Shown in pieces: positions 4,431 to 17,090 of a stretch of DNA of 20,040 bases (the first letter of the stretch is position 1; each line of letters begins with the position of its first letter). Origin of the DNA: a virus. Made by a program: the position numbers and the translations under genes. Under the pieces are notes generated by a model. The model was not told where the DNA came from. It saw only the letters and a list, made by a program, of their open reading frames with translations, and made no database searches. The DNA lies in IMG/VR virus record IMGVR_UViG_3300046000_012107, positions 1 to 20,040 of that record; one strand, given 5' to 3'.

Positions 4431-4448
4431 TGTTATATATTTATTTAT

Positions 4449-4456
4449 TATAAATA
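4449..4456 (+). promoter_or_regulatory. T4-late-type promoter core TATAAATA for the tail-fibre gene
   Basis: An exact TATAAATA lies 46 bp before the fibre ATG at 4503, in the context TTATAAATAGTTT. T4 late promoters consist of just this -10 octamer recognised by gp55, and a gp55-like protein is encoded at 16299-17090. The octamer is not rare in DNA this AT-rich, so position and pairing with 4480-4487 carry the weight. The expected start is about 4462-4465. Confidence 0.6.
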
Positions 4457-4479
4457 GTTTTTAAAATATATTGTAAACC

Positions 4480-4487
4480 TATTTATA
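4480..4487 (-). promoter_or_regulatory. T4-late-type promoter core TATAAATA for the structural gene at 3069-4430
   Basis: The minus strand reads TTATAAATAGGTTT across 4488-4475, sharing the ten-base TTATAAATAG with the plus-strand site at 4449-4456. The ATG is 49 bp downstream at 4430. The two cores face each other, so the two leaders overlap by roughly ten bases. Confidence 0.6.
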
Positions 4488-4502
4488 ATTAAAAGTATTT
4501 AC

Positions 4503-7500
4503 ATGACTAAACCAGATTTATCCAGACAATCAATTATACCGTCAGGTAGTACTGCATCATTTGATGGTAGTATTAGTATTGGTGAAAAATTATTAGTGCA
4601 AGATGTTGAATTTGTTATATCAGGTATAACATCTGGACAAACATTAGTGTATAATTCTGTTTTAAATAAATTATTACCTACTTCAATAGATTTAAATGCT
4701 AGTTCAACATTATCAGGTATGACTGATGTTAATTTTACAACATTAACATCTGGTGATACTATTCTTTGGAATTCTAATACAAATAAATGGGAAAATAATA
4801 ATATTGTATTAAATACTGATTCAATTATTAATACATCAACCGTTACAGGTTCAACAACAACAAATGCATTAGATAATCTTAATACTAATAAAGCAGATTT
4901 AGTCGCTGGTAAAGTACCATCATCACAATTACCATCATATGTTGATGATGTAATTGAAGGGTATTATTATACTTCAAACTTTTATGAAGATAGTGGACAT
5001 ACTATAACTATAATAGGTGAAACAAGTAAAATTTATATTGATTTACCAACAAATTTAACATATAGATGGAGTGGTTCAATATATATTGAAATTAGTTCAA
5101 CAACATTATTAGGTACAACGGATAGAATAACAGTATCAGGTAGTACAATTGATATTGCATCAACATATACTGGTCAAACTTCTATAAATACTGTTGGTGG
5201 AATAACCACAGGCTCTTGGAGTGGTACACCAATAAATGATACTTATATTGATAGTTCAAGCAATTGGAATACAGCATATAATAATAGAATATCAACTTTT
5301 ACTGTTACAGGTACAAGTGGTTCAGCCACTTTTACTGGAAATACACTTAATATACCAACCTATACATTATCTGGTCTTGGTGGTCAACCACAATTAAATG
5401 GAAATGGATTTGTTCGTTCAACAGGAACAACAATAGGTTATTTAACTGGAACTACAAATCAATTCGTTAAAGCTGATGGTTCAGTTGATTCAAACGTTTA
5501 TTTAACAGGTGAAACTGAAATAGCTTATGAAACATGGAGTACTAATGCTAATTATACTACTGTAAATACAACTGCAAAAAGATTAATAGTCTTACAAACA
5601 GGAACATTAACGGCAACAAGAACATTAACACTTGCAAGTGTAACAGGTGCAGGTCAAGAAGTTATAATAGTTGCAGGTGGAAGTGTTTCATCTACTATTA
5701 AAATAATTGTTGCTGTTGGTTTTAAAATAAATGCAACATTAAATTCAATAGATATTACAATACCTTATTCACAAACATTATTAACTTCTGTTAGTAGTAC
5801 TTCATGGACTTCTGGGGATGCATCATCTTTATTTACTGACGATGGCACAACTGCTGAAACAACTCGAAGATTAAAAGCAAATTATTTTGCAAATGGTGTT
5901 AAAACATCGATGACTGGAACAATAGGGGCAGGAGATTTTCAAAGTGTTCTTATAAATTCTAACAGGGTTGGGTTTTCAGTAAATTCAACAGCAGGATTAA
6001 AATTTATTCCTGCAATAGATGGTGTTTCATATTGGTCTCAAGAAATAGGAGGAAATACTAATCTTAAATTTTGGGATGGTTCAGATGTTGGAAATGGGGC
6101 GTATGCTCCTAATACTCAAAATATTTATTACGGAGGTTGGAACTATTTTAGTGTGTCCAATCCAACTACTTATATTGAAGGGTACTATTACAATGTTGGT
6201 ACTATTTCACAATTAATAATCACAAAACCTACATCAAATGCAGCTGCTTTACAAGTTGCTTTAACAGGTGGTAAAATAGCTGTAACAACAAATTCAGGTT
6301 TGACTTTTGCAAAGCAACAGTTATTAAATACTTGGTTAAACAGTGAACTACCTTTATTAAATCAAAAATATTCAACAACAGGATTAGCTAATTATTGGAC
6401 AGGTAGTGAAGGTTTAGGAATAGGTCACACTTCACAAAATGCAAGTGCTATACTTCAAGCAGATAGTACTACTAAAGGTTCGTTGGTTAATCCTAGAATG
6501 ACCACTACTCAAAAGTTAGCAATAGCTTCTCCTGCAACAGGATTAGAAGTGTTTGATACAACTTTAAATGTTCCACAGTACTATAATGGTACTGCTTGGG
6601 TAAGTCTTTTAAGTGGCAGTATAAGTAATGGATTTATTCCATATTATAATGGTTCTAGTTTAGTAAATTCTAGAATTAGGCATAATTATTTTTCAGTTGG
6701 AACTTATGTTGAAGGAACAGCAGATGTAGGGGTTACGCAAGCATTTTCAGTATATAATAATTCTGGAAATATACCTTTACTTCAAATTGCTAATTCAGCA
6801 CTTTTAACAACTATGCAATGTAAGGATTTTTCAATTAGAAATGAACAAGGCACAGGTTACTCTGTTTCAATTTCTCCAAATGGAACTGGTAATTTTGGGT
6901 ATCAACTTTTTTTATTTACACAAGCTGCTTACAATCAAAATCCAATAGGTGTATATAATGAGCCTAATGATGTTTATGTATTCCGTATATTATCAAGTGG
7001 CGAAATCAGAAATCAAGCTGTTAATAGTACAGCAAGTACAATAATAAGTACATGGAGAAAAAAAGACGGTACAATAGTAGTAACAGTACAAAACGATGGG
7101 TTATATGTTGGTTCAGGCACGAAGTCAGCAAGTGCATCATTACAAACAGACAGCACAACTCAAGGTAGTTTACCAGCACCAAGAATGACAGCTGCACAAA
7201 GAGTTGCTATAGCGTCACCAGTTGCAGGATTAATAGTTTATCAAACTGATGTACATGCAGGTTATTGGTATCATGACGGAACTATTTGGCAAGACTTATC
7301 TCAACCAAGAGTAGGAACTACTGCATCAAGTGCTACACCAACTATTAATACAGATGTAACTGATTACTATGAAATTACAGGTCAAACTGTTGACATAACT
7401 TCATTTACAACTAACTTAACAGGTACTCCTGTAAGAGGTCAAAAGCTTTGGATAGATATTACAGGAACAGCTGCAAGAGCAATAACTTGGGGTGCAAGTT

Positions 7501-7723: not shown

Positions 7724-7749
7724 TAATAACTATTTAAAATAAAAATAAT

Positions 7750-8238
7750 ATGAATACAGGTACACAAGTTAATGTAAGTAGGGAGATTGATTCTACTTAC
7801 GGTTTTATATATAAAATAGATGATAATGGTGATGGTAATGGTTATCTCTATGAAAAAGATAATATTAAATATATATCTATTTTTGGAGATATGATAATTT
7901 CTTCATGGGAAAGAAAAGTAACAACACCAATAATTGAAGTAATACAATTAGCTAATGATAATACAACATTTATTAAATCATATCCATCAGGAGTATATAA
8001 ATCAGATAGAATTTTATGCGATGATTTTACTATTGTGAATATTAGTGGTGGAACTGTAACAGATTTAACTACATGTTATGTAGAGGAAAAAGATAATGAA
8101 GGTAATTCTTATGACCCTATTAAATATAGTACAACATTAAAAACTGGTTTTAAAACACAATATCAATTTTATTTAGATAATATTGGTAAACCTATCATAT
8201 TTAAAGGGATTTATGATGTAATTAAAAATAGAATTTAA
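7750..8238 (+). CDS. Hypothetical protein of the tail-fibre cassette
   Basis: A 162-residue soluble protein starting MNTGTQVNVSREIDSTYGF. It has alternating short beta-like stretches (KYISIFGDMIISSWERKV, then IIEVIQLANDN) and no membrane segment or signal peptide. The ATG follows an A-rich leader (AAAATAAAAATAAT) typical of neighbouring starts. It is followed 23 bp later by a terminator, so it is the last gene of the fibre transcript. By position a small virion component or fibre-associated factor (for example an assembly chaperone) is plausible, but I see no motif that shows this. Confidence 0.65.
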   Translation: MNTGTQVNVSREIDSTYGFIYKIDDNGDGNGYLYEKDNIKYISIFGDMIISSWERKVTTPIIEVIQLANDNTTFIKSYPSGVYKSDRILCDDFTIVNISGGTVTDLTTCYVEEKDNEGNSYDPIKYSTTLKTGFKTQYQFYLDNIGKPIIFKGIYDVIKNRI

Positions 8239-8293: not shown

Positions 8294-8320
8294 CGTTTTA
8301 AAACTATTTAATTTTAAATT

Positions 8321-8737
8321 ATGAATTTTATGTCATTAGATAAAAAAGGTACGGATAATATAACTTGGTCACAAATTGATAAATATATATATTTAGGTAC
8401 AATATTAGTTGGTGTTTTTTTATATATATCCAGTATAAAAACAGATGTTGAAGTAATGAAAAATGATATAAATAATATGAAAGATATGATTAAGGAATTA
8501 CATAATCAACATATTAAAGAAAATGGACCAATTGGTAGTTTTTATGATGTAAATAATAATTTAAAGAAAAATTGTTTTATAAGTATAAATAACAACATTA
8601 ATAATAAAATGCCACCTATTAAAGATGATATTGATAATCCAATATCAAAATTTTTATGGGTAGACAATAGAAAAAAAATAATTGACGGAACAGATTATTA
8701 TGATTTTTTTAAAGACAAAAAACCGCTACAAACTTAA
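8321..8737 (+). CDS. Single-TM protein with short coiled coil (holin-like architecture)
   Basis: A 138-residue protein. A hydrophobic segment at about 22-39 (YIYLGTILVGVFLYISSI) is followed directly by a heptad-like charged helix at about 41-66 (VEVMKNDINNMKDMIKELHN) and a polar, Asn-rich tail with no further motif. A TM followed by a coiled coil at the end of a tail-fibre cassette resembles some small lysis-associated phage proteins (XhlA-type or holin accessory). No endolysin is adjacent and the tail is longer than usual, so this is only a suggestion. A second in-frame ATG lies three codons in. The gene sits after a strong terminator and I see no promoter in the 27 bp between them, so its transcription depends on read-through or an unrecognised promoter. 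Its TAA lies inside the loop of the next terminator. Confidence 0.65.
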   Translation: MNFMSLDKKGTDNITWSQIDKYIYLGTILVGVFLYISSIKTDVEVMKNDINNMKDMIKELHNQHIKENGPIGSFYDVNNNLKKNCFISINNNINNKMPPIKDDIDNPISKFLWVDNRKKIIDGTDYYDFFKDKKPLQT

Positions 8738-12389: not shown

Positions 12390-12583
12390 GATTTATAATT
12401 TTTATTGAAATATTTGTTGTAAATAACTACACCTAATATAAGTGTTATTATTAATCCTACTAACAAATATACAGGAAGAAATACATAAAACCAAGAGAAA
12501 TATGTATTTATTATAAGTTTATAGTAAATTAATATAAGTGTTAACTGTCCTATAAGGAATGGTATGTAAAATTGAAGTTTCAT
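12386..12583 (-). CDS. Small two-TM membrane protein (65 residues)
   Basis: A 65-residue protein with two long hydrophobic segments at about 5-27 and 31-55, and a basic tail (NKYFNKNYKS) that should stay in the cytoplasm. The ATG overlaps the TGA of the putative endonuclease gene (ATGA), and its own TGA overlaps the next ATG in the same way, so three genes in a row are translationally coupled. The TGA stops of these overlaps contrast with TAA elsewhere. Function unknown. Confidence 0.65.
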   Translation of the reverse strand: MKLQFYIPFLIGQLTLILIYYKLIINTYFSWFYVFLPVYLLVGLIITLILGVVIYNKYFNKNYKS

Positions 12584-13908
12584 AAAGGTGTGTTGTTTAG
12601 TAAATATTCTTCTAAGGTTTTTATTATATTTTTATCTGTATAAGGTATTCTTAATAAATTAATATCATTATCTTTACAGTATTTATTTTTAATTTCATCA
12701 CGAATTTGCGTTTCAATAAAAGATTTTTCACCACCAAACCATTCTATTGGTTTAAAATGTTGTTCTCCATCGTATTCTATGCATAAATTATATTCAGGTA
12801 GGTAAAAATCAAAAGTTAATACTTTTTTATATTTGCAATTACTGAATTTATGTTGTGGTATATATTTTATATTCTTATCATTTAGTAATTTACTTATCTT
12901 TCTTTCGCCTAGGGATTCATTACAATATGGGCAACCACATTGACTAGATATGTGGTGTGATAATTTTTGTTTAAAACTTTTTTTACAACTATTACAATAA
13001 ATATCAATTTTATCTTTATTTGAATTAAAAATTACATTATCATAATTAAATTTATTTTTACTGTGAACTTTTTTTGCTTTTATTAAAAAATCTTCTAAAC
13101 TCATTTTTAATGAATTTGATGTTTTTTCTGTACCGCATTTAGGACATCCTGTGGCATTTTTACCAATTAAATAACTAGAAATTGTTTCAAAATCACCATG
13201 TTTATTACAGGTAACAATAACATTTGTTTTTGAATTTATATATTTAACCTTATCGTATTTATATTTATCACCGTGAGTGTTAATTAATTCTTTAATAAAG
13301 CATTCATTACTTTTATTTGTTTTATCACTTAAACACTGTTCACAATTTGTTGAACCATTTATATGATGTTTAGGTTTTTGATAAAAAAAAGTATTGTGTT
13401 TATTACACTGAATTTCAACAGCAGTATTGCAATTAATATATTTTATATTATTATAATTGTATTTATTTAAATGTATTTCTTTTGATTTATTAATAAATAA
13501 ATTTTTATATTCATCATTTTTACAATCTTTACAAGATGTTTTGTCTAATAATTGTGATGCTTTTATATTATAATACCCATGTTTTTTACAACCAATAATT
13601 ACATCTTTATTTATATTATTATATATTACTTTATCATATAAAAAATTATCACCATATATATTTTTTATTTTATTAATAAATTCTTCGTTAGTAAAACTTC
13701 TTTGTTGTGAATTATATTCTTTCGCACATAATGAACATCCATGTTTTGAATAAATAAAATTACTTATTTTATTATCAAAATCACCATGAATATTGCAAGT
13801 TATTGTTATAATATCATTATAATTTTTAAATGATAAAACTTTGTCAAAATTAAATTTATCACCAAAAATTTTAAAAGATTTATTTTTTAAAATTTCTATA
13901 TTATTCAT
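12580..13908 (-). CDS. Putative homing endonuclease: zinc-knuckle repeats plus PD-(D/E)XK nuclease
   Basis: A 442-residue protein. Five tandem units of about 60-70 residues fill residues 1-333. Each has the form F/I..K...IHGDKY.Y..V.Y....., then V.I.C.KHG.F......H/L, then a C-x2-C pair (CSLC, CKDC, CEQC, CPKC, CPYC). This is the DUF723-like repeat found in phage and giant-virus nucleases. The C-terminal about 109 residues form a Vsr/EDxHD-like nuclease with E335 (GERKI), D367 in TFDFYLPEYN, E378 and D380 in CIEYDGEQH (384), and a terminal LLRIPY strand. Free-standing nucleases of this kind act as homing endonucleases in T4-like phages, and its position between uvsX and rnh fits an inserted mobile gene. 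The gene begins right after the uvsX terminator with no visible promoter. Specificity and activity are not shown by the sequence. Confidence 0.75.
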   Translation of the reverse strand: MNNIEILKNKSFKIFGDKFNFDKVLSFKNYNDIITITCNIHGDFDNKISNFIYSKHGCSLCAKEYNSQQRSFTNEEFINKIKNIYGDNFLYDKVIYNNINKDVIIGCKKHGYYNIKASQLLDKTSCKDCKNDEYKNLFINKSKEIHLNKYNYNNIKYINCNTAVEIQCNKHNTFFYQKPKHHINGSTNCEQCLSDKTNKSNECFIKELINTHGDKYKYDKVKYINSKTNVIVTCNKHGDFETISSYLIGKNATGCPKCGTEKTSNSLKMSLEDFLIKAKKVHSKNKFNYDNVIFNSNKDKIDIYCNSCKKSFKQKLSHHISSQCGCPYCNESLGERKISKLLNDKNIKYIPQHKFSNCKYKKVLTFDFYLPEYNLCIEYDGEQHFKPIEWFGGEKSFIETQIRDEIKNKYCKDNDINLLRIPYTDKNIIKTLEEYLLNNTPL

Positions 13909-15231: not shown

Positions 15232-16137
15232 TTAGAATGGCATATCATCATCACCAAGACTTGCAATTTTTTCTGCATTTGTTTTTGGTTTCGATGTTTT
15301 AGGTTCTTCTGTTGGGACACCTACTTTTTTCGACCATTCATCATCACTTAAAATTTCATTATCAGAACCACCTTCTTCTTCATATACTACATTACTAGGT
15401 GTAGTTGCTGTTTTAGGGGTTGTTGGTAAGATATTATAATTAACCTTAGATAAGTTAGGTAAGATATCTTTTTCAATTACGTCTAAATAAAATTGTTGAT
15501 GTTTTTTATGATTTTTAATTTCAGCTTCTTCACCATCGACAATTTTTTTAATCATTGTTGGTGGGACATCTGCTTTGAAGTCATATTTCCAAGATGCTTT
15601 TGTTTTATCTTCACCACCATCTTTTGGTGCTGCGAATCTAAAAAAGTCTTTTGAACCGCTAACCCAATCTTTATCATGTCTTAAAGTAAGATTGAAATTA
15701 ATTTCTGTTTTACCGTTTTTTTGTGATTCATTTTTGATAATAGATAGTTTAATTAAACCATATGATTTAATATTTGCTAAACTATTTAGCATGGTGCTTA
15801 CCATACTGTTTACTCTACCTTCATTATTTGTAAATGGTAATTGTAGAATATAATTTTCATTATCATCATCTGTAAATGAAAATTTAACATTTGGTGCTGG
15901 AATAATCTTTCCTGTTGAATCTTTATATGTAGCTTCTGAATCAACTTTAATATCCAATAGATAGCCATGAAATGGTAGTGGATAGTTAGCTGAGTTTTTT
16001 ATTAGGGTGTGTACATATTTTCCATCCCTTTTTTCTGATAATTGGAAAAATTTTCCTAAGATAATATCGCCATTTTTTTCGGAGATAACTTTTAACCATT
16101 TTACTGGTTTTGCGGTGTTTTGTGTTTCAAATCCCAT
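15232..16137 (-). CDS. Single-stranded DNA-binding protein (gp32/SSB-like) with DDDMPF tail
   Basis: A 301-residue protein. Residues about 1-200 look like an OB-type beta-rich DNA-binding core, with basic and aromatic residues (VKWLKVISEKNG, YVHTLIKNS, LTLRHDKDWVSG) and no zinc cysteine/histidine set like that of T4 gp32. A flexible acidic linker (about 240-290) leads to KIASLGDDDMPF at 290-301. This matches the bacterial SSB C-terminal tip (DDDIPF type) used to bind partner proteins, rather than the gp32 acidic tail. It sits directly upstream of uvsX, as expected for partners, and has a strong host-type promoter, so it is probably expressed early. The start at 16137 is preceded by an AT-rich leader without SD. 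Identity as SSB rests on the tail, size and context, and the core fold is inferred. Confidence 0.8.
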   Translation of the reverse strand: MGFETQNTAKPVKWLKVISEKNGDIILGKFFQLSEKRDGKYVHTLIKNSANYPLPFHGYLLDIKVDSEATYKDSTGKIIPAPNVKFSFTDDDNENYILQLPFTNNEGRVNSMVSTMLNSLANIKSYGLIKLSIIKNESQKNGKTEINFNLTLRHDKDWVSGSKDFFRFAAPKDGGEDKTKASWKYDFKADVPPTMIKKIVDGEEAEIKNHKKHQQFYLDVIEKDILPNLSKVNYNILPTTPKTATTPSNVVYEEEGGSDNEILSDDEWSKKVGVPTEEPKTSKPKTNAEKIASLGDDDMPF

Positions 16138-16189: not shown

Positions 16190-16219
16190 CAAAGGTAACA
16201 TTTATATTTTATATAACAA
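16190..16219 (-). promoter_or_regulatory. Bacteroidota-type promoter for ssb
   Basis: On the minus strand a TTTG with TTG at 16219-16217 is followed by exactly 19 bp and TACCTTTG (16197-16190), a perfect TAnnTTTG. It matches the Bacteroidota housekeeping promoter consensus better than any other site here. The start is expected near 16183, a leader of about 45 nt. Confidence 0.8.
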
Positions 16220-16227
16220 ATAAAATA

Positions 16228-16253
16228 TCAACTATTTTATTATAAATAGTTGA
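16228..16253. repeat. 10-bp dyad just upstream of the ssb promoter
   Basis: TCAACTATTT (16228-16237) and AAATAGTTGA (16244-16253) form a perfect 10-bp inverted repeat with a 6-nt loop. It ends 9 bp before the -33 TTG of the ssb promoter and could bind a regulator. It also contains a plus-strand TATAAATA, which is judged fortuitous. Confidence 0.5.
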
Positions 16254-16298: not shown

Positions 16299-17090
16299 TT
16301 AGCCTACAACATCTTTTTTCACCATAAAATAAAGACTTTTAAATTTAAGTATTGATTTTCTAATATCTTTTGTATCTAATCTTGTTTGTTCTTTTAAAAT
16401 ATAAAATATTTTATTTTTGGTGTATATATTTGATGTTTTTTGTTTTTTAAGTTTTCCTCTTTTAGTATACTCTAATTTTTCATCATTTTCTTCGTAGAAG
16501 AAATATTCATAATTCATTAAAATAAGTATAATAGATTCTGCTACTTTTATATCATCATCTCTTAATGTTTTATTCTCTTTAATTTCCTTTTTAAGAGCCT
16601 CTACGGTATTATTAACTATTTTGTCTAGTACATCTGCTTCGCTACTAATATTGTCGTCTATATACGCTTTATCTTTGATTTGTTGTTCAATATAATCTAA
16701 ATTATATTGACCGATATCATCATTGATAGATTCTTTTTTATTTGCTTGTAGTGAGTGTGTTTTGTAGTAGTTGTTACATATAGTACCTAAGTATGAAAAT
16801 GCTTTAACATTTTTACCATCTTTTCCTATTTTTGTATAATCGAATCCTTGTATTGCATTATATACTTGTATGTATGCTCTTGCTTCTAATTCATCTATAC
16901 CGCAACTACCTACATATCTGGGGTATTTTTGTAATAAACCTTTTACTAATTTTTCGATAGGTTCGTGAAGATATTTTGTATAGATATAATTTTTTTCATC
17001 ATTATCTTTTGAGGATAAATATTCTATAACAGCTTTTTCTTCTTTTTCCCCGAAGTAATTTTCTTTTTCAGGTTTTTTTAATTTAGACAT
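16299..17090 (-). CDS. Late-transcription sigma factor (T4 gp55-like)
   Basis: A 263-residue protein resembling the divergent T4 gp55 family, which directs RNA polymerase to TATAAATA. The recognisable part is residues about 15-120. It has a helical start (EEKAVIEYLSS), the region-2-like stretch GIDELEARAYIQVYNAIQGF followed by DYTK, and KAFSYLGTICNNYYKTHSLQANKK (about 96-119). This has the A...I.GF(D)..K...A(Y/F)......N layout of sigma region 2. The C-terminal half is charged and helical (EALKKEIKENKTLRDD, then KLKKQKTSNIYTKNK) and may hold a polymerase or clamp contact. The presence of two TATAAATA promoters at the virion genes supports the role. The gene is preceded by a middle-type element and a long leader, and followed directly by a terminator. 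The gp33 and gp45 partners must be elsewhere if they exist. Confidence 0.7.
   Translation of the reverse strand: MSKLKKPEKENYFGEKEEKAVIEYLSSKDNDEKNYIYTKYLHEPIEKLVKGLLQKYPRYVGSCGIDELEARAYIQVYNAIQGFDYTKIGKDGKNVKAFSYLGTICNNYYKTHSLQANKKESINDDIGQYNLDYIEQQIKDKAYIDDNISSEADVLDKIVNNTVEALKKEIKENKTLRDDDIKVAESIILILMNYEYFFYEENDEKLEYTKRGKLKKQKTSNIYTKNKIFYILKEQTRLDTKDIRKSILKFKSLYFMVKKDVVG

Follow-up and report, generated by a model that had tools for sequence, protein, structure and literature searches.

Putative back-to-back promoters of a T4-type late class, with a changed box, between divergent viral genes

The window, i.e., the whole stretch of DNA analysed here, is a 20-kb fragment (20,040 nucleotides) of a virus record, in which a 72-bp gap (4431-4502) separates two divergent ORFs (Table 1). 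We interpret this gap as a divergent region that probably holds two back-to-back late-type promoters, which on sequence grounds would belong to the T4-type late class and use a changed box. The box lies on the sense strand shortly before genes, is associated with virion genes in relatives and is separate from promoters of the sigma-A type; a gp55-like sigma gene is present in all seven relatives searched. Other genes of the window encode a DnaB-like helicase, an exonuclease, a UvsX-like recombinase and the end of PhoH. In addition, the window carries an HNH/homing endonuclease-like gene among the replication genes (12580-13908), around which the alignment with the close relatives L090 and L091 breaks, and a gene whose small product bears a UVR (UvrB/UvrC) motif at its C terminus (2446-2940).

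Table 1. Promoter elements and genes of the window discussed in the text (predicted from sequence)
Feature	Position	Strand	Remarks
Presumed structural gene, 453 aa	3069..4430	-	Downstream of the putative minus promoter; 73 relatives; no family match
Putative late-type promoter box CTATTTATAATAAATAA of the minus gene	4441..4457	-	Core TATTTATA 4456-4449; predicted start ~4443-4444
Putative late-type promoter box CTATTTATAATTAAAA of the plus gene	4479..4494	+	Core TATTTATA 4480-4487; predicted start ~4492-4493
Tail-fibre-like gene, 1036 aa	4503..7613	+	Downstream of the putative plus promoter; partial PHROG matches incl. virion structural protein
CTATTTA core	7730..7736	+	20 nt before ORF 7750-8238
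CTATTTA core	8304..8310	+	17 nt before ORF 8321-8737
Bacteroidota sigma-A-type promoter TTG-N19-TACCTTTG	16190..16219	-	Before gene 15232-16137; contrast to late-type box
Late-type box CAACTATTTATAATAAA	16236..16252	-	~100 nt before presumed ssDNA-binding protein gene 15232-16137; 10.0 bits
Putative gp55-like sigma factor gene, proposed reader of the boxes	16299..17090	-	Family A1 profile matches

The first-pass annotation correctly located TATAAATA once on each strand of the gap (4449-4456 on the plus and 4480-4487 on the minus strand) and in a shared context, both copies sitting within TTATAAATAG. It read them as canonical late promoters standing face to face, with each transcript crossing the other promoter and with complementary leaders. 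On those strands the octamers are indeed the exact T4 consensus (PMC2984593), and they lie 46 and 49 bases before an ATG, within the 46-50 bp claimed. TATTTATA, the sequence of the same positions on the other strand, is the reverse complement of TATAAATA, so that one sequence alone cannot assign the strand.

With the minus gene as query, 73 relatives were obtained; one is 93% identical, most others 31-37%. Their upstream regions share a sense GATATTTAT-n-ATAAA shortly before the ATG. Among 48 distinct upstream regions sense TATTTAT is present at -35 to -9 in 43, whereas sense TATAAATA occurs at -60 to -41, the distance which the face-to-face arrangement needs, in a single one. When 936 upstream regions from relatives are considered, GATATTTAT occurs in 92 at -40 to -8 and in none at -100 to -67, while sense TATAAATA remains at background level. 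Expectation maximisation on 878 regions yields sense nAnATATTTATAAnTAA in 24% of the ORFs and, when seeded with TATAAATA, drifts to the opposite strand, where it settles on this box with the frame shifted. The method does not itself impose the strand of the box, because the same procedure applied to the T4 late region recovers TATAAATA in sense. The conserved element is a sense box [G/C]-A/T-TATTTATAAnTAA located 15-40 nt before the start codon. Each conserved box of the gap reads sense on the strand of its own gene, roughly 20-25 nt ahead of it, and the two promoters would therefore be divergent and directed outward, an arrangement from which no overlapping or complementary leaders are expected. 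Facing cores and complementary leaders are accordingly abandoned, as is the assignment of each TATAAATA octamer to the gene 46 or 49 bases away, and we regard the face-to-face arrangement as very improbable.

Both sites were recovered by a matrix whose training set consisted of relatives and excluded the window; they were ranked over about 40,000 window positions. The plus-gene site ranks second (11.9 bits at 4476 on the plus strand, matrix start 27 nt before the ATG) and the minus-gene site sixth (10.1 bits at 4460 on the minus strand, matrix start 30 nt before the ATG). The boxes themselves begin 24 nt before the plus gene (CTATTTATAATTAAAA) and 27 nt before the minus gene (CTATTTATAATAAATAA), each on its own gene's strand, and the plus-gene box has the position relative to the ATG that is seen in relatives. 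A chance origin of the pair in very A+T-rich intergenic DNA could be argued from the octamer, which the first-pass annotation already took to be at chance level when considered singly: TATAAATA occurs 14 times in the window against 14.5 expected, i.e., without general enrichment. Against chance stand the retention of the element in the 43 of 48 relatives mentioned above and the finding of one matrix site per strand in the gap, which only 0.18% of shuffled gaps equal in score. The earlier claim that the pair exceeds chance thus holds, albeit for the opposite strands, and coincidence has a next to negligible probability.

The close relatives of the window lengthen the locus on both sides. In 60 kb of this clade, for which a motif was derived separately from the matrix of the distant relatives, CTATTTA is the most enriched of all heptamers; it occurs 24 times on both strands, with 11 sense copies at -40 to -14 before ORFs compared to 0.33 expected. 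Genes preceded by it include a baseplate wedge protein gene and the window ORFs at 7750 and 8321. The matrix from the distant relatives places boxes at only two of 50 genes of the clade, because the clade mostly uses CTATTTAA.

One record (L089, identical with L009) shows two further features. At positions 1-395 the AATAAATAAATATATAACA-ATG of the minus gene is adjoined by a reading frame resembling the C-terminal part of TnpB, with an end richer in G+C (...GGTAGTTCAC); identified by eye, this seems to be an IS200/IS605-type element inserted in the promoter gap, parting the gene from its CTATTTAT box. At 6701-6732, a 32-bp gap between divergent ORFs contains the near-palindrome CTATTTATATTAAATAG, in which each strand carries a box. 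The two boxes overlap, each stands 24-25 nt before an ATG, and they would truly be face to face.

Under the back-to-back reading, each promoter of the gap would consist of a single sense box CTATTTATAAT(A/T)AA lying roughly one helical turn upstream of the transcription start, with no -33 element, followed by an A-rich leader of about 10-13 nt and the ATG. The phage sigma, bound to host core RNA polymerase, would open the DNA where TATTTATA lies in sense. If the registers of T4 and Flavobacterium are taken as a guide, transcription is predicted to start about 12-13 nt from the first T of TATTTATA (Table 1), and promoters of this kind presumably act late. The nearness of the element to the start codon would also suit a signal at the RNA level, in translation initiation or processing. 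Such a role is improbable given that the distance to the ATG varies from about -17 to -42, that only some genes possess the element, that the late box and the sigma-A-type class share one gene of the Flavobacterium phage immuto, and that the known start-site determinant of Flavobacterium, an A at -3, lies nearer to the ATG (PMC6847099). An Rfam search of the window and its close relative L009 gave no match.

The association of the box with virion genes is best seen in Flavobacterium phage immuto, the closest isolate found, whose UvsX-like protein is 38.6% identical. The held-out matrix has 29 sense and 4 antisense matches in its genome, and 28 of the 29 sense matches fall within 80 nt upstream of a gene. 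In the virion blocks, which we delimited from the annotated gene order, 13 of 65 genes have a box, compared to 9 of 167 elsewhere (Fisher p = 0.0018), so that some non-virion genes are likewise preceded by it. The immuto genes with a box include those for terminase and portal, for the sheath and tube of the tail, and for the tape measure. Virion genes of the viral contigs also carry the box, which was counted in distinct upstream regions: it precedes portal genes in 10/10, terminase genes in 2/2 and prohead protease genes in 24/36 regions, and none of four replication or nucleotide genes, a small set. Several virion genes in these contigs (MCP, wedge, hub) have no box before them and may sit in operons. 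The first-pass annotation had expected TATAAATA to be enriched before virion genes; in that orientation it is not, and its reverse complement is the enriched element.

A motif search on immuto alone was dominated by a second class of element, TATATTTAG, which is concentrated in a block of small ORFs and has a TTG exactly 23 nt upstream in 23/23 cases. It resembles the Bacteroidota sigma-A promoter TTTG/TAnnTTTG (PMC6847099, PMC9723704). The same phage genomes carry such promoters for other genes, and the late box and sigma-A-type classes are distinct apart from the one shared gene: upstream of 22 late boxes of immuto TTG is scattered, without a fixed place, and no conserved -35 element is present. 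The -7 box of the sigma-A promoter resembles TATTTATA, from which it differs in that the late box lacks both the TTG at a fixed distance and the TTTG end. TTG-N18-21-TAnnTTTG has no match in the gap 4431-4502; it does have matches in the window clade (e.g., at 16219 on the minus strand), and a Bacteroidota-type host is supported by such promoters in immuto and in the window clade. Between 60 and 76 kb of immuto (L082-L085) a long repeated promoter-leader, TTG-N20-TATATTTAGGTATCAATAATTAAAAC, stands before many small ORFs, its conservation reaching well past the promoter. In the window itself (16190-16252), gene 15232-16137 is preceded by a tandem of late-type box and sigma-A-type promoter, which suggests that it is expressed both early and late.

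The gene proposed to encode the reader of the boxes is a member of a protein family that contains sigma-70 region 2 and resembles gp55 weakly. By itself it gave no significant match, and tblastn of the window's sigma against isolate phages likewise found nothing, relatives being needed as queries. At the family level (family A1, an alignment of 23 members) Sigma70_r2 is matched by 22 members and phrog_234, the late sigma transcription factor, by 16, in both cases with weak E-values. The family profile finds immuto gp118 (KNV73_gp118; ~2e-26), a protein of Microcystis phage Mel-JY01 (3e-22), one of Rhodothermus phage RM378 (1.3e-8) and, weakly, T4 gp55 (E 0.0012). In most relatives the sigma homologues (~24-31% identity) are located a few kb upstream of the homologue of the minus gene, for which neither the window copy nor five relatives matched a PHROG. 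An AlphaFold model of the sigma was poor (pLDDT 61) and had no meaningful Foldseek match in the PDB; the gp55-like assignment consequently rests on sequence profiles.

The boxes might alternatively serve a host alternative sigma factor, or host sigma-A together with a phage activator, rather than the phage gp55-like sigma. The resemblance of TATTTATA to the Bacteroidota -7 box (PMC6847099) would fit this, as would Mel-JY01, which has a related sigma but no such box in the 50 kb examined, so that the sigma family alone does not imply the box. However, the upstream TTG fixed in the sigma-A-type class is missing at the late boxes, the sigma gene is retained in every relative searched, and phages that infect the same hosts but lack the sigma are also devoid of the boxes: neither a convincing sigma relative nor a gene with the box is present in the examined sequence of the Bacteroidota phages FCL-2 (47 kb) and phi4:1 (50 of 146 kb). 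The T4 control for the box gave one sense and two antisense matches. We consider service to a host factor unlikely and retain the phage sigma as the candidate reader.

In T4 late transcription the sliding clamp gp45 acts as the activator (PMC2988020). No gp45- or DnaN-type clamp was found in the relatives or immuto: PF02916 and PF09116 matched nothing in immuto, in five large relatives or in two close relatives of the window, and PF00712 was likewise negative in immuto and in three large relatives; T4, as positive control, matches PF02916 at 2.9e-35. A diverged clamp or the use of the host clamp is possible. We give somewhat less than an even chance to the wider proposition that T4-like phages of the Bacteroidota/Rhodothermota branch have in common a class of late promoters whose sense box TATTTA(T/A) is read by a gp55-type sigma of increased size, no gp45-type sliding clamp being involved. 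If so, late transcription would not be tied to replication by a phage clamp, unlike in T4.

In the open-access literature searched we found no description of such a motif in Bacteroidota phages, of a late-type promoter class with sense TATTTATA in the T4-like members among them, or of the corresponding box in RM378. The class provides a usable promoter annotation, together with a candidate sigma, for a large and mostly uncultured group of Bacteroidota phages (contigs up to 362 kb), and a means to test how phage sigma and promoter co-change when the host polymerase differs. It is testable in the isolate immuto on Flavobacterium sp. LMO8.

In T4 late promoters (Straboviridae; gp55, gp33, gp45), a single A+T box of 8 bp occupies the -10 region, a -35 element is lacking and the downstream sequence is A+T-rich (PMC2988020). 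These traits are shared by the promoters described here, as are the position before virion genes on either strand and a phage-encoded, small and divergent factor of the sigma-70 family. The T4-type late system suggested by the first-pass annotation persists in its late-type promoters, one per strand, in the nearby gp55-like sigma gene and in the Bacteroidota type of the other promoters, but not in strand and geometry. The box about one helical turn before the predicted start is not sense TATAAATA, which stays at background level, but sense TATTTATA, which besides being the reverse complement is two substitutions away. The sigma is also larger (~240-263 aa versus 185 in gp55) and extends past the gp55-aligned region, and the clamp that T4 employs was not found. 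The cyanophages S-PM2 and Syn9 likewise operate a gp55-type late system in a non-enterobacterial host, with the late promoter NATAAATA; in contrast to the phages discussed here they retain a sense sequence like that of T4, and gp33 and gp45 are conserved in cyanomyoviruses (PMC2984593). RM378, which carries the relative of the sigma noted above, has sense TATTTAA instead of TATTTATA, in 17 upstream regions at -45 to -10 versus one further out. About half of its upstream regions tested (L124-L126) contain the sense TTATTTAAA box, which stands at about -27 before the sheath, tube and portal genes and, as in the window, forms back-to-back pairs in divergent gaps.
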